From NCBI RefSeq assembly GCF_013694095.1, contig NZ_JACEFB010000010.1:62001-126000 (forward strand): DNA of 64,000 bases, given 5' to 3'. This document shows positions 4,922-38,949 of the stretch, piece after piece. Source of the stretch: Thermogemmata fonticola (GTDB lineage: Bacteria > Planctomycetota > Planctomycetia > Gemmatales > Gemmataceae). The position numbers and the translations under genes were made by a program. The notes under the pieces were generated by a model that saw nothing but the letters and a program-made list of their open reading frames with translations, made no database searches and was not told where the DNA came from. How positions within the stretch are numbered: position 1 is the first letter of the stretch; each line of letters begins with the position of its first letter.

Positions 4922-5092
4922 GGTGGGATAGGGTGAATACTTTGATCATTCCGATGGTCGCGGCACCGGTTTCTGACAGTCGGCCCTGTGGGAAAGTCTG
5001 GCATCGTTCGTGTCAGCAGGCAGCCGGAGAAAGGGGACAAGGTGAGCAGCCATCGGGAAGGATTTCGTGGTAGCGGCTGGGCAGGAGACAAT

Positions 5093-6439
5093 ATGCGTGT
5101 CACCATTGCCAGTCTGGTAGCGCGGCGAGAACTGCGCGATCAATGGCGGGATCGGCGGACGTTGTTCCTCATCTTCGGTCTGCCGCTGTTGATGTATCCT
5201 CTGTTTGTGGGCGTGGGCTTGCTGTTCTGGGCTGCATTGCAAGACAAGCAGTATGTTATCGGCGTGGTGGGGGCTGAGCGCCTTCCCACCGGAGCGGCTC
5301 CACTAGGGGCTGCGGCGGGAATGGCAGCGGAGGCGATGTATGCCCGTCAGGTCTACCCCGCCTTGATTCAAGCCGGGCGGTTCCATCCACGGTATCTCCC
5401 CCTGACTAGCAATGGCGGTGGAGACCTGCTCCTGCGCTTTCTGAGTGAAGCGGATGAGGAACTCTTGGCCCAACGGGCCATCGATGCTCTGCTAATTGTG
5501 GAAGGAAACTGCGCTGAGGAACTCGAGCGCGGCGGGCAACCGGTTTTGCGCATTCTGGCCCGCGAAGGCGAGGAAAACTCCAAACTGGCTGTCCGGCGAT
5601 TGGCCGATGTCTTGAATCAATGGCAGGAGGATGTCAAAAAAGTCCGCTTCGCCCGCCATAATCTGCCGCCAGATTTCGACGAACCTGTCCGCGTCCACAA
5701 TCCTCTATCGGACAAACCCCTGGAAAAGCGCTTGTTCGATGAGTTGCGCGACACGCTGGTTAAAGTGATTCCCTTCCTGCTGATCATGTGGATGCTCACA
5801 GGGTCGCTTTATCCAGCCATCGATATGACGGCGGGCGAAAAGGAGCGCGGCACCATGGAGACGCTGCTGATCAGCCCGGCTTCGCGCAGTGAGATCGTCA
5901 CGGGTAAGTTTATTGCCGTAGCTGTGATGGGTTATGCAACGGCGGTGTGGAACGTGATCCTAATGGTCGGGGCAGTCCTGGTCGCGCAGATGTTTTTCCC
6001 CCACGAGTTGCTCTCGATGCCGGGCCTCATCGCCGGCATGCTGACAGCCATCCCCTTGGCCATCCTGATTTCTGCTGCTGCCCTCTCTTTGGGAATCTTC
6101 GCCCGCAGCACGCGTGAGGGGAATTACTACATGGTACCGATGTTCCTCGTGTTACTTCCCCTGGCGTACTGGAGCATGACGCCCGGAAACGAACTCAATG
6201 GACAAACGGCCTGGGTGCCCGTCGTCAACGTGCTGTTATTGCAACAACGTCTGTTAGCTACCCGGCCGGACCCATTCCCTTGGGCAACTGTACCCGTGAT
6301 TGTAATCTCTTTGATTATCTGCATCACCCTACTCCTGGCGGTGGCCATTGCACAATTCCATCGGGAAGAGGTACTATTCCGAGATGCCCAAGCTCCTGCT
6401 CGGGGTTGGTTCCGAAAAAATGCACCTTCACCTGATTAG
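5093..6439 (+). CDS. ABC-2 type transporter permease (NatB-like)
   Basis: Membrane subunit of an ABC exporter, 448 residues. I start at ATG 5093, which has AGGAG about 7 bases upstream; the frame is open to 4988 but that extension is polar and lacks a ribosome site. A first helix lies at about residues 20-45, followed by a large extracytoplasmic domain (about 50-250), then MTAGEKERGTMETLLISPASR, the ABC-2/NatB signature, and five to six helices to the end. The family pairs with a separate ATPase, often for Na+ or drug export; none is adjacent here, so the partner must be encoded elsewhere. It lies 171 bases downstream of hutH in the same direction, probably as its own unit. Confidence 0.9.
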   Translation: MRVTIASLVARRELRDQWRDRRTLFLIFGLPLLMYPLFVGVGLLFWAALQDKQYVIGVVGAERLPTGAAPLGAAAGMAAEAMYARQVYPALIQAGRFHPRYLPLTSNGGGDLLLRFLSEADEELLAQRAIDALLIVEGNCAEELERGGQPVLRILAREGEENSKLAVRRLADVLNQWQEDVKKVRFARHNLPPDFDEPVRVHNPLSDKPLEKRLFDELRDTLVKVIPFLLIMWMLTGSLYPAIDMTAGEKERGTMETLLISPASRSEIVTGKFIAVAVMGYATAVWNVILMVGAVLVAQMFFPHELLSMPGLIAGMLTAIPLAILISAAALSLGIFARSTREGNYYMVPMFLVLLPLAYWSMTPGNELNGQTAWVPVVNVLLLQQRLLATRPDPFPWATVPVIVISLIICITLLLAVAIAQFHREEVLFRDAQAPARGWFRKNAPSPD

Positions 6440-6517: not shown

Positions 6518-7411
6518 TCAGGAGGGCCACGCCGCAAACAGCACTTGTACCAAGACTAGTAGGAAAAATCCGATACTAATGACGCCATTGACCTGGAAGA
6601 AGGCCTGCTGGACGCGGCTGAGGTCCTCCGGCCGGACGAGGTAGTGTTCATAGGCGAGCAAAGAGCCGACCAGGAGCAAGCCGAGGTAGTAAATAGTCCC
6701 TAGGGGTGGAGCCGCCAACGGGAGCAGGGCCAGTAATACGAGCATGATCAAATGACACAGGGCTGCCACGCGCAGGGCAGCGGCCACACCCAAGCGAGCG
6801 GGCAGACTCTGCAAGCCAGTACGGCGATCAAATTCTGCGTCTTGACAGGCATAGAGAATGTCGAAGCCCGCGACCCAGAAGGCGACAGCGGCTCCGAGCA
6901 AAAGAGGGGCGTACAGAGCTGTCAACCCTCGCAACGCGATCCAACTGGCCAGGGGTGCCAGCATCAACGCTGAGCCTAGCCAAAAGTGTGCCAGTGAGGT
7001 GAAACGCTTAGCATACGAGTAGCCGAGAATCCACATGAGCACCGGTCCGCTCAGGTATAACGGCCAGGGATTTGGCGGCTCCCTCCAGAGAAACAACAGC
7101 GTTCCTGCGACAAAAGCTAGACAGCAGAGCAAACAGAAGAGAACCACGGTGCGTAGGGACAATTGGCCGGCGGGAAGATGTCGTTGGGCAGTGCGCGGAT
7201 TCGCCGCATCGTAATGCCGGTCCACAATCCGGTTGAACGCCATCGCTGCGCTGCGGGCACTCACCATACACCAGAGAATGCCCGCCAAGTCCAGAAGCCG
7301 GAACGGCTCCTCCGTCCAGGCCAAGACTGCTGCCGTCAAAGCAAAGGGTAATGCAAACACCGTATGGCTGAACCGGATCAACTCCAGCAATCGGCGAACC
7401 AACTGTCCCAT
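6518..7411 (-). CDS. UbiA-family prenyltransferase (4-hydroxybenzoate / menaquinone-pathway type)
   Basis: Integral-membrane enzyme that attaches a polyprenyl chain to an aromatic acid in quinone synthesis. With the start at ATG 7411 it is 297 residues, the usual length, beginning MGQLVRRLLELIRFSHTVFA. The two Asp-rich motifs that bind Mg-diphosphate are present: N60-R-I-V-D64-R-H-Y-D68 and D184 ... D191-A-E-F-D195. Eight or nine hydrophobic segments follow. The sequence resembles the UbiA-like enzymes found with the futalosine menaquinone pathway (MqnP), which would fit a planctomycete, but no mqn gene is in the window to confirm it. The frame extends upstream to 7552 without a signal. Confidence 0.92.
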   Translation of the reverse strand: MGQLVRRLLELIRFSHTVFALPFALTAAVLAWTEEPFRLLDLAGILWCMVSARSAAMAFNRIVDRHYDAANPRTAQRHLPAGQLSLRTVVLFCLLCCLAFVAGTLLFLWREPPNPWPLYLSGPVLMWILGYSYAKRFTSLAHFWLGSALMLAPLASWIALRGLTALYAPLLLGAAVAFWVAGFDILYACQDAEFDRRTGLQSLPARLGVAAALRVAALCHLIMLVLLALLPLAAPPLGTIYYLGLLLVGSLLAYEHYLVRPEDLSRVQQAFFQVNGVISIGFFLLVLVQVLFAAWPS

Positions 7412-7952
7412 GAGATATCTTCCCCCCAGAGGGAGGGGTCTAATCCCACTCGTGTATCTTCTTGTCCTTATTTTGCGTTGTTGTCTCGTACCATTCGCTG
7501 TCTGTTGTTGTATTACCGCTGGAGTTGTCAGCTTCAGGTGTAACTCCAGCACCCTTGCTAGAAAATGCCGGAAGAGGTCCGCACCTCGAAGGACAGAATG
7601 ACCCCAGTCTATCGCCGGAACTCCTTTGGAACGAACGCCCGCCGATCAAGCAGTCTGGGAAAACTCCCGAGAGGTAGAGGCCGTGTACCGCCGTGGAAAG
7701 GTCTGCGGAAAAATTGGAATATAAGCGGGTTGAGGAATGTCGCAGGGTTCCAATCACGATCATCCTCTTCGAGGAACAATGTCGATGTACGGGATGGGTA
7801 GCAGTAGAATCGCCGGTTCTGCGGAAAAACATTCAGAGAGTATTTACCCAGACCGGAGAGTAATCGAAGTGGAAAATAGACCGCCTCGCGAGAGGATCAG
7901 GAAAACGTATAATGCCATCGAGGCATGATGGAGCCAAGATCCGGGACCGCGT
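7412..7952. other. Intergenic region with a lone -10-like hexamer
   Basis: Contains several short open frames on both strands that look like noise. A perfect TATAAT lies at 7908-7913, 40 bases before the next ATG, but no matching -35 hexamer is seen at 16-18 bases. An 8-base palindrome CTCGCGAG lies just upstream of it. No RNA gene is recognised. Confidence 0.35.
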
Positions 7953-8393
7953 ATGAATACCTCGCTCTACGTAACTCCAGCGGCGCCGATCACGTTGCCC
8001 GAACCGAATCCAGCGCGGGATAGTGTGGAGTTGTTGCGGCAGATGCTTCAGGTCCAGCAGGAGCAGTTACACCTGATGAAAGTCCAACTGGCAGCCCAAG
8101 ATCACGTGGCTAGATGCCGCGCCTTCCTGCAACGGTGGGAAGGAGACTATCCCGATTTGGGGGCCGCCTGCAAACGAGCGTTGCCGCTTCTGGAGCGGGC
8201 CTATGTCCATCTTCTGCGGGAGATGGCCGAGCAGATCGGCAACATGGAAGCGGATGAAGTCTGCGATGAATTCTGGCTCAGCGAGTTCATCGATCGCTAT
8301 GGGATGCGATTAAGTCAGTTGGGGAACATCGTCAGTCAGGTTGCACCGCTGGCCGAAGCGGCTAACACGGCCTCTGGAAATGGGGGGAATTGA
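7953..8393 (+). CDS. Conserved-looking hypothetical protein, helical
   Basis: 146 residues, not recognised. After a Pro-rich start, residues about 25-60 form an amphipathic, Gln/Leu-rich helix with coiled-coil character (LLRQMLQVQQEQLHLMKVQL), and the rest is predicted helical, with acidic (EADEVCDEFWLSEF) and hydrophobic blocks. No signal peptide or membrane segment. The ribosome site is weak (GGGA, about 9 bases). Codon use resembles the neighbours, which with the long clean frame supports a real gene. A cytoplasmic planctomycete-specific helical protein is the best description. Confidence 0.7.
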   Translation: MNTSLYVTPAAPITLPEPNPARDSVELLRQMLQVQQEQLHLMKVQLAAQDHVARCRAFLQRWEGDYPDLGAACKRALPLLERAYVHLLREMAEQIGNMEADEVCDEFWLSEFIDRYGMRLSQLGNIVSQVAPLAEAANTASGNGGN

Positions 8394-8676
8394 ACCGCCG
8401 GTCTGGGTAAAACATCATAAAGAAGGTGGTGATCTTCAGACTCGCGTTACTGTTTCCAAAAGCTCATCGCCGGTAGTGGTGGCCGGGAGTTAGGGGGCGT
8501 AATGAACGAACGGTAGGCTATGCCGGGTCGAAATTGCGTTTATGTGGAATTGGGCCGGTGCAGGGTGGTAGATGGAACCTGATGATTCTTTTGAGAGGTT
8601 CCCCTTAGGGGGGCTTGCACGGGATGAAGGTGCGGGAAGCGGTTGAGGAAATATCCAAGCAGCGGAAGGATTAGGC

Positions 8677-11600
8677 ATGGAACCCAGTGCTGCCGAAATT
8701 GCCCAACTGAGGGAATTGTATTCCCAAGGCCGGTACATGCAGGCCTGGGCGCTGGTGCAGCAGTTTGCTCCCTTGCGATCCTGGCGCGGGACCTCAGCCC
8801 GTTTGATCGGGGGCCGGCTGGCCATGCAGCTTGGGGCGCCGAAGCTGGGACGGCAACTGCATCTCTTGGCCTGGCGTCACGCTCCGGCCCATCTGGAAGC
8901 CATCTACTACCAAGCCCGGTATCTTCTGGAACGCTTCGGACCGGTGTCGGCCTGGCGCTTCGCCCGGCGGCATCCGGATTGGTCCGATGCCTCACCAGAA
9001 TTGCAGGCTGACTGGTGGAGCCTGCTGGGTTTCCTAGCGGGCCGCTTTCGGGATTGGGAACGCGCCGAGCGGTTGTTCCAAAAAGCCGAAAACCTGGCCC
9101 CGGATCACCCGTGGACGTTCGTCGAGCGCGCCGGTGTTTATGAGATGGCTGAGAAATACGAACAGGGCCTGGAAGCCGCCCAGCGCGCTTTGGAGTTGCG
9201 TCCCTGGTATCGACCGGCCGTACAGGCCGCCGCCCACCTTTTGTTCCGTTTGGGACGCTCGCAAGCCGCTCTGGAATTGCTCTACGAAGGGATGGAGCAT
9301 CTGGAATGCGGCCTCCTCGCTGCTCAAGCCGCCGTCATCCATTACGAACAGGAGCAGTACACCGAGGGTCTGGCGGCTTTGGAGCGCTTCGAAGCTCTTT
9401 CCCCCCTGATGGAGGATGAGTCGCGGCAATGGTTGGCCGCTCGGCGGACCGACATGCTCTTGCGCTTGGGGCGGTATCAGGAGGCTGTGCCTGTAGCCCG
9501 TTCCGTCAAGGAAGATTTCTACACGGCACTAGCTGATCGGGTATCCACGCTTGCGGAAACGATGCCCCAGCCCCGGAAGCTACTGTTATCAGAAGGAACA
9601 CGCTGGCAAGGCCGGCCATGGGACCGGTATTTGGAACAGTGGTGGCAGCAGCCGCCGCCCGTAGCTTCCTGGGATGCCTCGCCGCCGCCGCTCGATGGAT
9701 TACCCAACATCGAGGATCGTCTGCGCTGGCAGGCGGCCCATTGGCGGGTCCGGGACTTCCGTCTCACGGCCGAATCTGTCGCAGGCCTGATCGCGCGCGG
9801 ATGCCCTTTCATCGTTCATTTTGTCGAAGCTGGCTATACGCAGCCCCGCCTCGCTATCGGCTATGATCCGCTGCGCAACACCCTCCTGTGGGGAGATGCC
9901 GACGAACGACTGATAGGGGAAACACCCCTGGAGGCGATTCTCGAGCGCCAAGCAGCTTTCGGACCGCGAGCCACGGTCTATGTGCCTCAAGCGGCAGCGG
10001 ATCGCCTGGATTCTCTCCTGCTTCCTGATGCAGAGCTTTATGATGCTCTCGCAGCTATTCAGCAAGCATTGCTGGAGCATGATCGTTTCTCGGCTACTAG
10101 AGCTTATCAGCGTCTTCAGGCGGAGCATCCAGATCATCAGGTAACCCTGTTTGCCGCCCTGGCTTTGGCTCACTACGATGCCCACCCGTTGCGGCTGCTG
10201 GATTGCTATGAAAAGCTGCTGGCGCGCCATCCCCGTGAGACGACGTGGATACTGGGAAAAGCGGGTGTGCTAAGGGAATTGCATCGATGGGAGGAACGCG
10301 AGAGTTTTCTCATCCAACAAGCGCAGCAAGCAGATGTCGATCCACTGATCCTGTTGAATCTGGCGCAGACTTTGATGGTTCGTGCCCCGGAACGCGAGTG
10401 TGCCGCCTGGCTGGTACGCCGAGCCTTGCGCCTACGCCCTCTGGCACCTGCGGGGCACTTCCTCTCAGGAGCGTTGGCTTGGGATCGGCAGCGGTTTGCT
10501 GAAGCCGTTGAATGCTACCGCTTCGCCTGCACCTTAGATGACCGTGAGGAACAATTCGCCGAGGCTTATGCTCGCACCACGTTGGCCCAAAATCAAGCCC
10601 CGGAAGCCTTGCGCTTGTTTCAGAATAAAGGCCCGCGCGCGGAGATGCCTCAGCCGGTAGCCGTCCGCGCCCTCTACTACCTCCTTTGGGATCGGGGAGA
10701 ACGGGATCATGGGCTGGTTGCCTTGGACCAGGCTATCCGCAAATTGACGGAGCTGTGTCACCGGTCATGGGATAATTCAACGGGCAAGTATGTGTCCGCC
10801 ATTTCCGAGGCGGGTAGTGATGAATCCAAGATGGCTTTTCGGCTATCAGGCGCCAGCGATGCCGATCGCTCTCCGAGGCCCCAAGAAGCAGCCCCACCTT
10901 TTCCTAAGTCTCCCGCCGCGGAAGCCCTAGGGGAATTGTTGCTCTTCCGGGCCGAACAGCATGCCGCCGCTGGACAAGGTGACGCAGCCCGCCAGGATCT
11001 GGAGGCGGCACGCCCCCTTACCAATCCCAAGCAATGGCTTCGCACCGCCGCGCGCGTCGCACGGTGCCGGCCGAACTTCGCCGAAGCCCTCACCTTCCTG
11101 CGGGAATGGACGCGCCGCTGGCCGTTCGACATGGAAGGCCAGCAGTTCCTGATCAGCGTCCTCCAGGAAACAGAGGGGCGGGGTGCCGTGCGGGCTTACT
11201 TGGCTCAACAATGCCAACAGTTCCCTCATCACTATCCCCTGCACAAGCTCCGGGCAGAGTTTCTGAGCAACGATCCGGAAGGAGGCGGAATCGAGGCGGT
11301 GCAGGTCCTCCTGGAACAGTCCCAACAGGATGCCTGGGCTTGGCGGCAACTGGCCCTACTGCTCGCAGAACGCAAACGCTTCACCGAAGCGGAACAAGCT
11401 CTGGAGCGAGCTGCCCAACTCGAACCGAACCACCGCTGGTATTATGCCACGCGCGTGCAGGTGCTCAAGCGCATGGATCGGGTGGAAGAAGCTCTGGATA
11501 CGTTGCGGCAAGCTCTGCGCCGCGACATCGATCAGGAGTCGCTCATCGGAGAGCTGTTGGAGTTGAGCCGGGGCCGCGAAGAAAAACAGGCCGCTCTAGA

Positions 11601-14600
11601 TTTCATCGCGGAACAACTGCGGCGGCAACCGCACACCGGCGAGGGTTTGGTGGCGTTCTTGCAGCAATCCCACCAGCTTATCGCCGCACGCGAAGAACCC
11701 GACCCTGACGAACATCAGCACCTGTTGGAAACACTTCAGGAAATCTTAGAATGGCGCCCGGATTTATGGTACGCCTGGTCTACCGTGATCCACCAGATGG
11801 CTGGTTTGGGACGGCTGGAAGAAGCCGAGAGTCTGGTTCGCATTGCACTCCACCGCTTCCCGTTGGTCGGCAAATTGTGGTTAGATTACGCCCAGGTCTG
11901 CCAGGGATTGCATAAGAGTGAAGAACGCCTGGAAGCGCTACGCCGCGCCTTCATGCTGGCTCCCGGTTGGCCAATGGCTGCCCAGGCTCTGACCGAGGCA
12001 CTGGCGGAACAAGGAGAGCATGAAGAAGCTGTGACCATCTGGAAGTTGGCGGTGCCGCGCAATCCATTGGAGGGAGCAGTTCACGGCATGCTGGCCAACT
12101 GTCTCTGGGAAGCTGGACGAGCCGAAGAGGCTTTGCAGCGCGTCCAACTCGCTCTCCAGCACGACCCAGATTATGATTGGGCCTGGAATGTCTTGCAAGT
12201 TTGGTCCGAACGCCTGGATCAGCCGGAAATCCCCATTCAGTTCGCCCGGGAGTTGACTCGCCTGCGCAGCGGCAATCCCGAAGTTTGGTTACGCCTGGCC
12301 CGCTTGCTGACTCATCCCCAACATCACGCGGAAGCCCTAGAGGCGCTGGACCGTGCTTTGGTGCTCGATCCTTACCGTGTCGAAGCCTATGATCTGAAGG
12401 CGGAACGTTTGGCCGAAATGGGTCGCTACGAAGAAGCGCTTGCTGCGGCTCAGCCTCCCCTTCTGGCGGGCAATCTCCCGCTGGTGCTTCAAGGACGGGT
12501 TGCCTGGATCGAAGCCCGCCGTGGCAATTATGCGGCTGCCATTCCTCCCATGCAAGCCCTGGTTGCCATCGAGCCAACCTACGTGTGGGGATGGTACCAA
12601 TTGGCAGAGTGGTACAGTGCTACCGGACAGAACGAGCATTATTTAGAAGCCGCAGGGGAACTCGTGCGGTTGCAACCGGGCCATCCGATGCATTTGGCCA
12701 TGCGAGGGGAAGCTCGTCTCAAAACAGGCGACCGCGACGGTGGCAAGGAAGACCTGCGCGAGGCTTTGCGTATCGCTCCTGGCTACTCCTACGCGGCCAG
12801 TTTGCTTTTCGATGCCTGCTTGGCCGACGACGAGATTCGTGAGGCCCGCCAAGCCCTGGCTCTGTTGCAGGAGCATCTGGCCGGTCCCGAAGTCGCCGTC
12901 AAGCAACTGCAATTGGCCGTCCGTCTACGCGATCAGGATACCGCATTGAAAGCCTTCGGGGAAATCTGCGAAGGGACCGGTCAATCCGCCTACCCCTTGC
13001 AACTGGCCCTGCAAGAGTTGAGAAACGCCGGCTGGGAGCCGCAAGCCCTCCCCTTGCTCCGGCAAGCCTGGCAAGGGGGAGGACCGTTCCACCCTTGGGT
13101 ACCAATCCTGTGGATCGAATCGCCGGAGGGTCAAGCTGCGGATCCGGCGGATCGCCTGCGGGCTGTTGAAACACTTATCAAAGCCTATCCCAAATTCGCT
13201 CCCGGTTACGACGCCAAGGCGGAACAACTGGCTTTGCTAGGCCGTTATGAAGAGGCGCTCGCCGCTTGCCAGCCCTCCGAAATCAAACCGCTCCCCGTAG
13301 AACTACAAGCCCGGGCTGCTTGGATCGAAGCCCAGCGGATGCGCTGGCAGGAAGCGATCACACGCATGCGGCAACTAGCCAATGAACATCCAGAATTCGC
13401 CCCGGCCTGGCGCCACCTGACCATGTGGTATAACACCACAGGGCGCTATCGGGAAGCCCTGGAAGCCGCCGAACAACTGGTCCGCTTGGAACCGAAACAT
13501 CCCCTTTCGTACCTCCTGCGCGGAGAAGCTCGCCAGCGCTTAGGAGATGCCCGGGGCGCTCGCAGCGACTATCAACAAGCCTGGAACCTCGACCCGACGC
13601 TCGAAGGAGCAGGAGTCTTGCTGATCCCGGCCCTACTGGCTGACAACGAAATCGAAGCCGCCGTCCGAGTCCATGCCACCTTGGCGGAACATCATGACAC
13701 CCCTTGGGTCCGCCTGCGTGCATTGCAAATTGCCTGCCATCAGGGAAACCGTGAAGTCGCCCTTACCCGCTTCCATGCTTTGGCTCGTGATCCAGAAGTC
13801 ACCCTCGATATCCTTCGGGAGGCCGCCCAGAGCTTCGATCAACAGCAATGGAATCAAACCTTGACCGCCGAACTGAAAGAGATCGTCTCGGACCCTGCGT
13901 CCGTTCCCGCAGCCGCTACGCTTTGGGTCGAACGACTGGTCGATCTGGGCCAACCGCAACGGGCAATCGAAGCGATTCCTCACCTGCGAACGTCACATCC
14001 CTCTGCAGCCCGTGCCGCCTTATTGGCCTTGCTCATCACCCTCTCCCAGCGGGGACAGCCTGTCCAGGGATTGATCACGCATCATGCCGACCTGTTGCGA
14101 GCTGATACCGAAGCATGGGCCATTGCCGGCCATGCCTTGGCTAGCACCGGGCAGTTTGCCCATGCTGCGGCTTGGCTTGCGGACTGGCGCTCCCGTCCGG
14201 GTCTAACCCCCCAAATGCTCACTCCCTTGGCCTGGGCCTATCGCCTCCTCGATCAGGACCAGCGTGCCGCTGACGTCTGTTACGCCGCTTTGCAACTCCC
14301 CGCTTCCGATCACGAACTGGTCCATTTCCGCGCCTGGGCCGCATTGGACGCCGCGCTGGCCAAGCGGACCGACGAAGCCGCTCAACTTCTAGCCCGCCTT
14401 GAAGCCGGCTTCCTACCCGCGGAAGTGTTACCGTTGACTCAACTCACCCGCGCGCTACTACTCGTGCTGACAGCGGGAGAACAAGGACGATCTGTCGCCT
14501 TCCGCGAAGCCCGGCAACTCCTCCGTGCCACGATTCCCTTCCATGCCCAGATCCCCGGCTTGCTCCGCGCCTACCGCAAGGTGGTTCGCTTGCTCTCCCA

Positions 14601-14667
14601 GGCCACAGGCTCGTTCTCAGCTCGTTGTTGGGGACTCTACCTGCTGCTGCGCAGTTACCTGCGCTGA
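8677..14667 (+). CDS. Giant TPR-repeat protein with an internal degenerate C39-peptidase-like domain
   Basis: 1996 residues without a signal peptide or membrane helix, so probably cytoplasmic. Residues about 1-300 and about 450-1960 are tandem tetratricopeptide-like helix pairs (many copies of forms such as ALERAAQLEPNHRWYY, LDRALVLDPYRVEAYD, AAEQLVRLEPKHPLSY), a scaffold for protein partners. Between them, residues about 342-436 (NIEDRLRWQAAHWRV ... GCPFIVHF ... AIGYDPLRNTLLWGD) have the layout of a C39-like cysteine-peptidase domain, but I find no Q-x-x-x-x-C-G nucleophile and the usual H-x-V-V-V-x-G-Y is replaced, so it is probably inactive. The codon pattern is uniform and no frameshift is seen over 6 kb, which argues that local sequence quality is good. 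Confidence 0.92.
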   Translation: MEPSAAEIAQLRELYSQGRYMQAWALVQQFAPLRSWRGTSARLIGGRLAMQLGAPKLGRQLHLLAWRHAPAHLEAIYYQARYLLERFGPVSAWRFARRHPDWSDASPELQADWWSLLGFLAGRFRDWERAERLFQKAENLAPDHPWTFVERAGVYEMAEKYEQGLEAAQRALELRPWYRPAVQAAAHLLFRLGRSQAALELLYEGMEHLECGLLAAQAAVIHYEQEQYTEGLAALERFEALSPLMEDESRQWLAARRTDMLLRLGRYQEAVPVARSVKEDFYTALADRVSTLAETMPQPRKLLLSEGTRWQGRPWDRYLEQWWQQPPPVASWDASPPPLDGLPNIEDRLRWQAAHWRVRDFRLTAESVAGLIARGCPFIVHFVEAGYTQPRLAIGYDPLRNTLLWGDADERLIGETPLEAILERQAAFGPRATVYVPQAAADRLDSLLLPDAELYDALAAIQQALLEHDRFSATRAYQRLQAEHPDHQVTLFAALALAHYDAHPLRLLDCYEKLLARHPRETTWILGKAGVLRELHRWEERESFLIQQAQQADVDPLILLNLAQTLMVRAPERECAAWLVRRALRLRPLAPAGHFLSGALAWDRQRFAEAVECYRFACTLDDREEQFAEAYARTTLAQNQAPEALRLFQNKGPRAEMPQPVAVRALYYLLWDRGERDHGLVALDQAIRKLTELCHRSWDNSTGKYVSAISEAGSDESKMAFRLSGASDADRSPRPQEAAPPFPKSPAAEALGELLLFRAEQHAAAGQGDAARQDLEAARPLTNPKQWLRTAARVARCRPNFAEALTFLREWTRRWPFDMEGQQFLISVLQETEGRGAVRAYLAQQCQQFPHHYPLHKLRAEFLSNDPEGGGIEAVQVLLEQSQQDAWAWRQLALLLAERKRFTEAEQALERAAQLEPNHRWYYATRVQVLKRMDRVEEALDTLRQALRRDIDQESLIGELLELSRGREEKQAALDFIAEQLRRQPHTGEGLVAFLQQSHQLIAAREEPDPDEHQHLLETLQEILEWRPDLWYAWSTVIHQMAGLGRLEEAESLVRIALHRFPLVGKLWLDYAQVCQGLHKSEERLEALRRAFMLAPGWPMAAQALTEALAEQGEHEEAVTIWKLAVPRNPLEGAVHGMLANCLWEAGRAEEALQRVQLALQHDPDYDWAWNVLQVWSERLDQPEIPIQFARELTRLRSGNPEVWLRLARLLTHPQHHAEALEALDRALVLDPYRVEAYDLKAERLAEMGRYEEALAAAQPPLLAGNLPLVLQGRVAWIEARRGNYAAAIPPMQALVAIEPTYVWGWYQLAEWYSATGQNEHYLEAAGELVRLQPGHPMHLAMRGEARLKTGDRDGGKEDLREALRIAPGYSYAASLLFDACLADDEIREARQALALLQEHLAGPEVAVKQLQLAVRLRDQDTALKAFGEICEGTGQSAYPLQLALQELRNAGWEPQALPLLRQAWQGGGPFHPWVPILWIESPEGQAADPADRLRAVETLIKAYPKFAPGYDAKAEQLALLGRYEEALAACQPSEIKPLPVELQARAAWIEAQRMRWQEAITRMRQLANEHPEFAPAWRHLTMWYNTTGRYREALEAAEQLVRLEPKHPLSYLLRGEARQRLGDARGARSDYQQAWNLDPTLEGAGVLLIPALLADNEIEAAVRVHATLAEHHDTPWVRLRALQIACHQGNREVALTRFHALARDPEVTLDILREAAQSFDQQQWNQTLTAELKEIVSDPASVPAAATLWVERLVDLGQPQRAIEAIPHLRTSHPSAARAALLALLITLSQRGQPVQGLITHHADLLRADTEAWAIAGHALASTGQFAHAAAWLADWRSRPGLTPQMLTPLAWAYRLLDQDQRAADVCYAALQLPASDHELVHFRAWAALDAALAKRTDEAAQLLARLEAGFLPAEVLPLTQLTRALLLVLTAGEQGRSVAFREARQLLRATIPFHAQIPGLLRAYRKVVRLLSQATGSFSARCWGLYLLLRSYLR

Positions 14668-15683: not shown

Positions 15684-17519
15684 TCAGGACTCATTCGGGG
15701 CAACAGTTCTGCCTAATGCAACGTCAAATTCACTCAGCAGTGGTACCAGCATAGCAGCAATTGCTAATCCGAACGCTCCAGCTAGTGCGAGGAACGGCAT
15801 CAGAGGTTCTGCGGATTCCTGCGTACCGGGTTTACCGATCAACACGGTGACCACGGCGTAGAACATCGCCAAGGGACATGCGACACTGGCTAGGCTCAGG
15901 GCTGCCGAGGGGCGGTCCGCACTGAAGACATACAAAAGCCCGCCGATCCCGACCGCCAGAAAGGCCACGAAGCTCAGCCACTGGTTTGCGAAGCTACCGC
16001 CGTTGATGATGATGAGGTAAATGGCGATCAAAGTACCTACGGAAAGGAAAAACACGGTTCCTAATGTTTGGACAATCGCTTGCCGGCTATTCGGAATACG
16101 GAGGGCCACATGCAACCCCAGAACCACAACAAATGCGAACAGGATCGATATCGCTCCGGAGATAGCCAAGAAGGGACCGAAGTTTAGCTCCAGTACAGTT
16201 CGCCAGTCGTGGGCGGGAGAAGGGGGAGCTAATGCTCCGACTATCGCGTAGTAAAGGGTTAGCAGAAGCGGAGGAAGTATATACTCTTTGCAATTGTAGA
16301 GAGCACCCAGAATTTTGCCAAAAACGAATTCATAGGGAGAAATATCTGTGACAAGCAGGATATCCAACGTCCCTCCATCCCGTTCGGATGTGATAGCAGT
16401 GACAGCTTGGGCAGCGACGAGGAGCAGGCTGAGGATGGTCAGAGGGACGAGTCCGTATGCCGCGGCGAAGGCAGGCCGGCCCCCCGGTCGAACCAACTCC
16501 GCATAGGCAAAATAGAGAATAAGCAACAAAACCACTGCAAAGGCGAATTTGACAAGGAGGGGGCGTCGTCCATAAGCCAGAGTGCGAATCTCGCGCCAGA
16601 GAATCGGATTATGCCAGACGTGGCGAACCGGACCAGGGGCAGCATGTGCTTGCGCTCGTTTCTCCAGTTCCTCGGACTCGTCCAGTTCTTGCACAGTGTC
16701 GGGTGCTTCTCGGGGAACGATCGGCTCGCCACTCGGATTCCAGCGGCGCAGTCCCCAAATACCTATCGTGTTGAGCAACACCGTCCAAGCCAGCATAACT
16801 ACTGCAAAGCCATAAGCCGGTGCCACACCGTTCCAACCCGCACTCGGCGGCGCCAGAACCGTTTGTAGAGCAGCAAATGGGTCCAGCCATGCCTGCACAT
16901 GACCCGCCGAAGCAGAAACCGGACTTTTGGGAACCAATAAACCGACGGCCTGGACTAAACCCAAGTACAAGGCCAGAAATAAGACGGACAAAGCCAAGGC
17001 TTGAAAGGTCCGCTCGCGCCACAGAGCGACCAAAGCTCCGAGAGAACCAGCGGCTATAGCCGTTGCAGCAAGGATCACCAGCGTCTGAAGCACCTGTTGT
17101 GGCGCTATTCCGCCCAGCAAAAGGAGCAACGCTAGGACTGGCGCGGTGATGGCCAGTTGGATCGTGATCGGTAACAAGGCACCGAGCATCTTTCCTAACA
17201 CAATTTCGTAGTCTCGCATGTCGGTGATCAGGAGCAGGACGAAGGTCCGACGATCTTTTTCCTGAGCCACAGCCCCCGCAGCCGACAGCGTGGCAAAAAA
17301 AAGAGTCAACAACAGCAAAACGTAAGATACGATCTGATACAGCAGCAATCCGAAGGCAGCCGTCTCGCCGAGCGAGGCTTCCCGGGTAAAACCGATACTC
17401 GCCTGCCAAGTGGTAATACCAAGCACAACTAGCAGCCCGATCATAGCCGCTCGGCTGGCATAGTGACCACTGCGGCGAGGCACCGTTACCACTTCACGAC
17501 GAAAGATAGGTCCCAGCAC
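15684..17519 (-). CDS. Two-unit ABC-2 permease fusion
   Basis: Membrane protein of about 611 residues built of two ABC-2 permease halves. Each half has the family signature before its helices: EKDRRTFVLLLITDMRDYE in the first and SERDGGTLDILLVTDISPYE in the second, each followed by a copy of F/VLGK(M/I)LGAL. About 12 hydrophobic segments are visible, with a charged linker (DTVQELDESEELEKRAQAH) between the halves. I start at GTG 17519 (VLGPIFRREVVTVPRR), which has GGGAGGGA upstream and resembles how relatives begin; GTG 17549 is the outer alternative. The protein would work with an ABC ATPase encoded elsewhere; substrate unknown. It is divergent from the next gene. Confidence 0.9.
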   Translation of the reverse strand: MLGPIFRREVVTVPRRSGHYASRAAMIGLLVVLGITTWQASIGFTREASLGETAAFGLLLYQIVSYVLLLLTLFFATLSAAGAVAQEKDRRTFVLLLITDMRDYEIVLGKMLGALLPITIQLAITAPVLALLLLLGGIAPQQVLQTLVILAATAIAAGSLGALVALWRERTFQALALSVLFLALYLGLVQAVGLLVPKSPVSASAGHVQAWLDPFAALQTVLAPPSAGWNGVAPAYGFAVVMLAWTVLLNTIGIWGLRRWNPSGEPIVPREAPDTVQELDESEELEKRAQAHAAPGPVRHVWHNPILWREIRTLAYGRRPLLVKFAFAVVLLLILYFAYAELVRPGGRPAFAAAYGLVPLTILSLLLVAAQAVTAITSERDGGTLDILLVTDISPYEFVFGKILGALYNCKEYILPPLLLTLYYAIVGALAPPSPAHDWRTVLELNFGPFLAISGAISILFAFVVVLGLHVALRIPNSRQAIVQTLGTVFFLSVGTLIAIYLIIINGGSFANQWLSFVAFLAVGIGGLLYVFSADRPSAALSLASVACPLAMFYAVVTVLIGKPGTQESAEPLMPFLALAGAFGLAIAAMLVPLLSEFDVALGRTVAPNES

Positions 17520-17609
17520 GCTAGTTCTTCCCTCCCCGTTTGTTCCCACTCCGCTTCCCGATATCGTTCATTCGAGCGATGTATCCCACCCCGAAATACC
17601 TGCAGAATG

Positions 17610-37590: not shown

Positions 37591-38949
37591 ATGTTTCGAG
37601 CACTGCGCCAATGGCTGAAACAAAGCAATCCGAATCAGTCAAGTCCAGCCACGCCTATGCTTAAGGTCGAAGCTCTGGAAGACCGCACGGTTCCATCCGC
37701 CTTCATACGAGATGGGATTCTACATGTACACGGAACCGCTGCGAATGATATCATCCGAGTCATTGAAACTGAGGCAGACTACCAAGTTATCATTTGGAAC
37801 AACGAAGAATATTACAACCGCAGATTCAGCAAGTCTCGAGTCACAGCGGGCCGAGTTCAAATTGAGGGATATGCCGGCCACGATGAGATCCGACTCAACC
37901 TTCTCCGTTCATTACGCGGTACTGTGAACGGGGGCGATGGGAACGACCAATTGATTGGCACACGCAATAACGACGTTCTCAACGGTGGAAATGGCGACGA
38001 CTACATCTTAGGTGGTGCTGGAAACGACATCATATCGGGCGAAAATGGTGATAATGTGCTGGACGGTCAGGCCGGGAATGATCTGATCGTGGGTGGACGT
38101 GACATGGATGATATATATGGGAGAGAAGGTAACGATGTACTCTTCGGCGGCGAAGGAAACGACGAATTATACGGCGGGGACGGCGACGATCGGCTCTACG
38201 GCGGAGGCGGTAGCGACGTGCTCCGCGGAGAAAACGGAAACGATTTCCTGCAAAGTGGGCCGAACTCCAACCTGTTGGGCAGCGTTCTGAGTGGTGGCTC
38301 AGGAAACGACCGCTTGGTTTCCCGGAGCCGGAATGACTTCCTATTCGGCAACGCAGGTCACGACAGCGCTAATCTGCTAGCTAACACCTTCGTGAGACAC
38401 TGCGAAGTCGTTTGGATTTCCGTGCCTGGAGGAAGCCCTCAAACCGATAACTGGAGTTGCGGTCCGAACTCCGCCTCGCGTTTCCTGCGAGCCTATGGCA
38501 TCGAAGTTTCCTACGAAACTCTGCGATCGGTGGCCGCAAGCTGGCCGGACCTGGTTTCCCAATCCAACCTTGGCACGCGGCCTGGATCGTTGCGAGATAT
38601 GATCGCTAACTACCGCCCTGAAACCCAACTGGCCACAGGGGCAAGTTTTGAGACTGTTGTGAATCTGCTCCGTCAAGGCCGACCCGTCATCGCTCTGGTG
38701 GCTTCTGGCATCCTAAGCGACTTCTTGGGCAAAGTTGGCATTCTCCACTACGTGGTCCTCAACGGTATCGATGAAGCCACGCAAACACTCTACTACATGG
38801 ATACGGATGGCGTGCAAAGGAGTTGGTCCTATGCGGAGTTCCAAGACCGCTGGAATTGGGGCGGCAGTTGGTTTACGGGCCTAGCGGGAGATGCAGCTCA
38901 GGGGTTCCTCAACAGCCTCGGTGTGCATGAGCGCACGATCATCTTCTGA
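37591..38949 (+). CDS. Surface protein: LEPR-like N-terminus, RTX repeats and C39-like protease domain
   Basis: 452 residues, start ATG 37591 with AGGAGG upstream. Residues about 24-37 (VEALEDRTVPSA) match the planctomycete N-terminal sorting segment for surface or exported proteins, in place of a classical signal peptide. Residues about 110-260 hold hemolysin-type calcium-binding nonapeptides (GGxGxDxUx forms such as GGAGNDIISG, GGEGNDELYG, GGDGDDRLYG). Residues about 283-430 form a papain-like C39-type domain: Cys290 in NWSCGPNSASR, His386 in ILHYVVLNG, Asp404 in YYMDTDG, a complete Cys-His-Asp set. A calcium-dependent secreted peptidase or peptidase-like adhesin is likely. It converges on the PP2C gene across a strong terminator. 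Confidence 0.88.
   Translation: MFRALRQWLKQSNPNQSSPATPMLKVEALEDRTVPSAFIRDGILHVHGTAANDIIRVIETEADYQVIIWNNEEYYNRRFSKSRVTAGRVQIEGYAGHDEIRLNLLRSLRGTVNGGDGNDQLIGTRNNDVLNGGNGDDYILGGAGNDIISGENGDNVLDGQAGNDLIVGGRDMDDIYGREGNDVLFGGEGNDELYGGDGDDRLYGGGGSDVLRGENGNDFLQSGPNSNLLGSVLSGGSGNDRLVSRSRNDFLFGNAGHDSANLLANTFVRHCEVVWISVPGGSPQTDNWSCGPNSASRFLRAYGIEVSYETLRSVAASWPDLVSQSNLGTRPGSLRDMIANYRPETQLATGASFETVVNLLRQGRPVIALVASGILSDFLGKVGILHYVVLNGIDEATQTLYYMDTDGVQRSWSYAEFQDRWNWGGSWFTGLAGDAAQGFLNSLGVHERTIIF

Follow-up and report, generated by a model that had tools for sequence, protein, structure and literature searches.

A papain-like C39-type domain that has lost its catalytic residues within a long TPR protein of Gemmataceae, and the small gene that precedes it

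The 64,000-nucleotide stretch of Thermogemmata fonticola analysed here (the window; contig NZ_JACEFB010000010.1, positions 62,001 to 126,000) encodes on its + strand a 1996-residue tetratricopeptide repeat (TPR) protein (8677..14667) with an embedded C39-like domain that, judging from its aligned sequence, is catalytically dead. By analogy with a known system, we consider it reasonably probable that the protein is a pseudopeptidase in a TPR scaffold, which would bind instead of cutting and would work with a small protein encoded directly upstream. Relative to a preliminary description of this gene, the new elements are the existence of intact versions of the same protein and the conserved upstream gene. 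Pseudopeptidases are already known as a kind; what this family offers is intact and dead versions of one giant protein, Cys-less intermediates that still hold the catalytic His, and a gene pairing found in the dead state. Such a series allows the direct question of why a protease domain unable to cut is kept, and the small protein provides a testable partner for a long planctomycete TPR protein. No publication that treats this protein, its architecture or any TPR protein with a dead C39 domain was found in the open-licence part of PubMed Central, a collection outside which most subscription papers lie.

The reading frame at 8677..14667, in a host genome of 4.81 Mb on 61 contigs, is open throughout as first described, and Pfam TPR families match the protein on both the N-terminal and C-terminal sides of the C39-like segment. 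A model of residues 1-600 (mean pLDDT 87.5) has the domain between two sets of helical arrays, one ending at residue 292 and the other beginning at residue 452, in agreement with the proposal that the domain is embedded between large TPR arrays. The N-terminal TPR-like array thus corresponds to residues 1-292 (8677..9552) and the C-terminal arrays, supported by Pfam TPR matches and by model helices at 452-599, to residues 452-1996 (10030..14664). The least certain parts of this model (310-312 and 332-336) belong to the decayed catalytic end. No signal peptide is apparent by eye, and the scaffold is probably cytoplasmic. Within the C-terminal part, residues 673-728 (10693-10860) have a mean occupancy of 0.48 across 21 dead-type proteins and are insert-like.

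Alignment and modelling place the domain at about residues 299-447 (9571..10017) and indicate a papain-like fold of C39 type. The C39 layout proposed earlier for residues 342-436 is therefore right in type and too narrow in range, as residue 342 already lies past the equivalent of the Cys-bearing helix. Submitted alone, whether as the whole protein or as the C39-like segment, the window sequence has no C39 match in Pfam or NCBIfam, including none to Peptidase_C39_2 (PF13529), whose gathering cut-off it does not reach. The comparison with Peptidase_C39 that had been suggested as a check is positive only at the level of relatives. An alignment of dead-type domains (26 of 36 loci and window rows, after duplicates and near-copies were dropped) was compared by hhalign with an alignment of intact TPR-C39 relatives (20 of 27 loci), giving a probability of 99.9 and an E-value of 4.3e-36 over 134 columns, and all 20 intact rows match Pfam Peptidase_C39_2; homology to members of that family is established through this route. 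A search of solved structures with the dead-domain alignment gave a single match (E 0.72). The AlphaFold2 model of the domain, for which four relatives were supplied, has a mean pLDDT of 77, and its first Foldseek matches are AvrRpt2 (6hqz, top), PCAT1 and ComA. With VIA-align 2, the matches are mostly cysteine proteases and relatives with a papain-like fold, including PeiR (Z 10.3), phytochelatin synthase Alr0975 (Z 9.7), the C39-like domain of HlyB (3zua; Z 9.6, rmsd 2.7, 116 aligned residues), ComA (Z 9.2) and PCAT1 (Z 9.2). An unrelated predicted fold would have contradicted the original proposal, and the papain-like prediction leaves it standing.

Catalytic states were read from 76 aligned sequences, 49 from Gemmataceae and 27 from outside the family. 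Every outside sequence carries the Gln, Cys and His (27/27), with Asp (24) or Glu (3) as the third residue; their typical motifs are 'FVRQHHxTCAPAT', 'HLQAVIGYD' and 'RDP'. Six of the 49 family rows are intact (G038, G061 and G063-G066), and 43 are of the dead type. Because the Cys region of two of these 43 (G014, G021) lies past a contig end, the loss of the Cys is seen directly in 41, that is, in 41 of the 49 family rows. In the window protein the intact T-C-x-P-A motif is replaced and the oxyanion-hole Gln is gone; residues 315-323 (9619..9645) form a predicted helix, devoid of Cys, at the place where intact relatives have their Cys-bearing helix. The catalytic His position is occupied by Gln389 (9841..9843), and the third position retains Asp407 (9895..9897). 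Across the 43 dead-type rows, the His position is occupied by Gln 34 times, by His 7 times and by Tyr and Val once each, so that His is lost in 36, and the third position is Asp or Glu in 42. The nearest row to the window, from the same genus (G073), retains the His. Of the features of papain-like cysteine peptidases (clan CA), the window domain has the third residue and, in the predicted model, the fold; it lacks the Cys with its preceding Gln and the catalytic His. The absence of a catalytic Cys reported earlier is confirmed by the lack of any Cys at the aligned position and extends to the Gln and His. A migrated Cys was considered and rejected, as the Cys residues found elsewhere in the decayed stretch (6 of 41 readable dead-type rows) are scattered and none is at the aligned catalytic position.

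The segment spanning residues 271-467 is matched in 49 of 95 Gemmataceae genomes, or 39 of 66 when only the best assemblies are taken (E <= 0.001). Among these matches, 38 sit in open frames of 1941-2152 residues and 11 in shorter frames; contig ends explain several of the latter, and one frame (G027) is only 1192 residues despite a long contig. A broken gene was rejected as an explanation, the matched segment being free of stops in 49/49, with the short G027 frame set aside. Five of the loci encoding relatives carry names, and these are metagenome-assembled genomes of Gemmataceae, Fimbriiglobus and Limnoglobus. In a wider, phylum-level sample of 392 genomes, the dead-type profile matches 36, three of them in Gemmataceae; loci were read for 27 of the 33 outside the family, the other six being unread. 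The intact TPR-C39 (Peptidase_C39_2) proteins of other Planctomycetota have the same architecture, in frames mostly of about 1450-2160 residues. The whole window protein matches all eight intact loci compared (L107-L114, three from Gemmataceae) at E <= 9.3e-162, values that are inflated by the TPR repeats. These proteins differ from the window protein in having the catalytic residues and in being unlinked to the small gene. In a further Gemmataceae genome (G029, locus L188), a 591-residue frame (7043-8815, +) is distantly matched by the intact C39 profile (4.8e-8) and is not matched by the TPR protein at E 1e-20.

A tree of the 76 rows, built from the domain with its flanks as a quick tree without bootstrap and with many deeper forks open, places all dead rows on one side of a branch with an SH-aLRT value of 100. 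The value is 99 in a second tree of the same quick kind, from which nine outgroup rows were removed by hand, four flagged as long and five belonging to a deep outgroup clade. The Cys was probably lost once, as a single loss suffices on this tree. The His was lost later and repeatedly, or was regained, because the His-kept and His-lost labels require further changes within the dead side. When all 49 family rows were constrained together, the tree was 4.54 log-likelihood units above the free search (p-AU 0.646). The family's intact and dead genes may therefore be a single lineage, an arrangement that the constrained tree leaves unrejected and does not prove. Since this falls short of showing a clade, the dead type may instead have been acquired separately.

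Purifying selection acts on the dead domain. In ten close dead-type pairs its ratio of nonsynonymous to synonymous substitution rates (dN/dS) is 0.08-0.25 (10/10), and in two intact pairs it is 0.15 and 0.39; the values were obtained by the Nei-Gojobori method from 12 hand-chosen pairs, in which genomes recur and some dS values exceed 1. In 21 full-length dead-type proteins, the mean column identity of the core (336-447) is 0.46, compared with an average of 0.48 (sd 0.08) for equally long stretches outside it, that of the N-terminal array (1-292) is 0.55, and that of the former Cys-bearing part (302-335) is 0.28. Framework positions conserved in both types include Gly341, Arg348, Phe361, Leu371, Pro377, Phe378, Gly395, Asp397, Gly429, Pro430 and Pro437. 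Other positions are conserved in the dead type only, among them Gly386 (41/43), Pro417 (40/43) and Arg424 (43/43).

Directly upstream of the dead-type gene lies a gene for a 146-residue protein (7953..8393, + strand). It precedes the TPR gene in 16/16 of the first dead-type loci examined. Overall, 36 genomes carry both genes on one contig, and all of these are of the dead type; the two genes are on the same strand in 36/36, with match starts 1.3-1.9 kb apart. A 37th pairing (G021) is read through a contig end, the start of the TPR gene following the small gene on another contig. The pairing spans 14 genera. The small gene occurs in 80 of 95 Gemmataceae genomes, comprising 44 of the 49 that match the domain and 36 without a domain match. 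Other families of the class carry it too, and it is therefore older than the pairing. In two dead-type genomes (G018, G026) the genes are on different contigs and the TPR frame begins at a contig end, and in two others (G014, G055) the small gene is missing and the TPR frame is cut by a contig end. Among the six intact genomes of the family, five have the small gene on a different contig and the sixth gave no match to it. Outside the family, two genomes (G403, G415) contain both genes, again on different contigs, and the small gene is unlinked to the intact TPR-C39 gene in L107-L114 (8/8) and in a further locus (L186). Besides this pair, no gene cluster is common to more than three of 24 loci, and no neighbour of the eight intact loci is common to more than two. 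In a wider clustering, the second-largest cluster, with 30 loci, was taken for antisense frames and rejected as a neighbour; one such frame that was read overlies the small gene on the opposite strand. In some loci (L100, L101) the stop-to-stop frames of the small gene and the TPR gene abut or overlap. A scan of 7700-8750 in the window detected neither a promoter-like nor a terminator-like site on the coding strand, which is weak evidence.

By eye, the small protein looks helical with an extended N-terminal tail; Pfam and solved structures yielded nothing usable on it. The tail of dead-type genomes often reads 'YVxPP', and many others read 'QIDVS' with an Asp. This Asp is present in 0/36 readable dead-type rows, from 38 that include three with the genes on different contigs (G018, G021, G026) and two with unreadable tails (G026, G089). 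It is present in 8/17 family genomes without a domain match (17 of the 36 were read, and two, G001 and G029, are weakly matched in a separate search), in 4/5 genomes with an intact C39 domain, and in 9/11 genomes outside the family, the other two having Glu. Among small-protein loci L170-L180, eight (L172-L178 and L180) share a neighbouring frame nearby, of which the L176 member resembles an SNF2-type helicase by eye.

The preliminary description compared the domain to the inactive, peptide-binding C39-like domains of ABC transporters. As to kind, this comparison fits. The C39-like domain (CLD) of HlyB likewise has a papain-like C39 fold without the catalytic Cys and, according to a review (PMC8277102), tethers or recruits unfolded cargo. 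The same review describes a retained His that stacks on a conserved Trp located six residues N-terminal to it, and a HlyA-binding pocket that faces away from the peptidase cleft, on the opposite side. Given this placement, any binding surface of the window domain could lie elsewhere than in the old cleft. The likeness fails in several respects: the HlyB CLD forms the N-terminal end of an ABC exporter, whereas the window domain lies inside a TPR protein that is not a transporter; the His, retained in the transporter, is lost in 36/43 dead-type rows and is Gln389 in the window; and residue 383, in the position of the Trp, is Val, with Trp there in 0/43. The window protein is at most analogous to the HlyB CLD and falls outside that group.

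Other known systems are more distant. AvrRpt2-type Peptidase_C70 shares the papain-like fold, and its Pfam model is matched by 18/20 intact rows; it is described as an active cysteine protease and is not a TPR protein. The PA2778 family of cysteine peptidases (NF033920, a model of 255 positions) is weakly matched by 18/20 intact rows, and the window protein reaches 51.3 bits, on a TPR stretch only, compared with a cut-off of 150 bits. Because the window match falls on the TPR stretch, we infer rather than observe that PA2778 combines C39 and TPR elements. The window protein scores 162.3 bits against the PEP-CTERM TPR protein PrsT (TIGR02917), below the cut-off of 312.2. Elsewhere in the window, a gene at 37591-38949 (+) encodes a 452-residue protein in which RTX calcium-binding repeats precede a C39_2 domain apparently bearing the Cys ('WSCGPNS'); it is the only Peptidase_C39_2 match of the genome at E <= 0.01.

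On the sequence evidence, the intact type is a TPR-C39-TPR protein with Gln, Cys, His and Asp/Glu. The dead type has lost Cys and Gln, and afterwards His in most members; purifying selection has maintained the predicted fold, the framework residues and the reading frame. In the pseudopeptidase reading, the former substrate cleft, free of its nucleophile, could then hold a peptide or protein tail uncut, and the TPR arrays may bring the held ligand to other partners; more tentatively, the small upstream protein might be the ligand or a co-subunit. That the cutting residues are lost and the domain is kept in many family members, mostly beside the small gene, suggests holding and not cutting. A more specific version, which we regard as quite improbable, holds that on one branch a TPR-C39 enzyme came to adjoin the small gene and lost its Cys, and that the dead cleft now receives the N-terminal tail of the small protein; shared descent could also account for the tail Asp pattern. 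Several observations weigh against the pseudopeptidase reading. The stop of the small gene and the ATG at 8677 are 283 bases apart in the window, and two dead-type genomes (G041, G068) lack the small gene with the upstream stretch present. The small gene has a role of its own, because 36 genomes of the family carry it without matching the domain. The dN/dS of the domain is above the value for the N-side TPR flank in 10/10 dead-type pairs and above the value for the C-side flank in 8/10, so that constraint on the domain is weaker than on its flanks in most pairs. No Foldseek match of the domain model lies below E 0.001 (best 2.4e-3, to AvrRpt2), and the VIA-align documentation states that best Z scores of 7 to 8 are common even without true relatives.

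The Foldseek values, together with the failure of the window sequence alone to match a C39 family in Pfam or NCBIfam, are what could be said for a chance resemblance to C39. This is hardly credible, because the hhalign result links the domain to intact C39 relatives that match Peptidase_C39_2 and occur in the same kind of TPR protein, and VIA-align scores of 8-10 extend to many cysteine proteases. It is also very unlikely that the domain has acquired a new chemistry or a migrated nucleophile. The nearly universal third-position Asp/Glu, the intact framework and the occasional Cys in the decayed stretch are compatible with such a change, but those Cys residues are at different places, no position of the former active-site stretch reaches 80% Cys, Ser or Thr in dead-type rows, and Cys376 of the window is found in 1/43. 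A vestigial spacer, a folded insert needed by the TPR superhelix and without a ligand, would fit the decay of the old catalytic end, the higher dN/dS relative to the N-side flank and the loss of His after Cys. We nevertheless consider it unlikely, as the core is conserved to much the same degree as the remainder of the protein, some positions are conserved in the dead type only, and the His position is predominantly Gln instead of drifting. The cooperation with the small protein faces a separate alternative, to which we give some weight while leaning against it: the upstream gene may be a neighbour by descent, the two proteins not cooperating. Because the dead-type genes group on the tree, one ancestral arrangement suffices, and the distance in the window and the occurrence of the small gene without the domain, in this and other families, agree with this. 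Other flanking genes vary, however, while the pair remains adjacent and co-directional in every same-contig genome, and the stop-to-stop frames abut or overlap in L100 and L101.

Genes for ABC-2 type membrane transporter proteins lie on either side of the TPR gene, at 4988-6439 (+) and 15684-17549 (-). Among 24 loci compared, the former is common only to a locus of the same genus (L096), and the latter is common to none.

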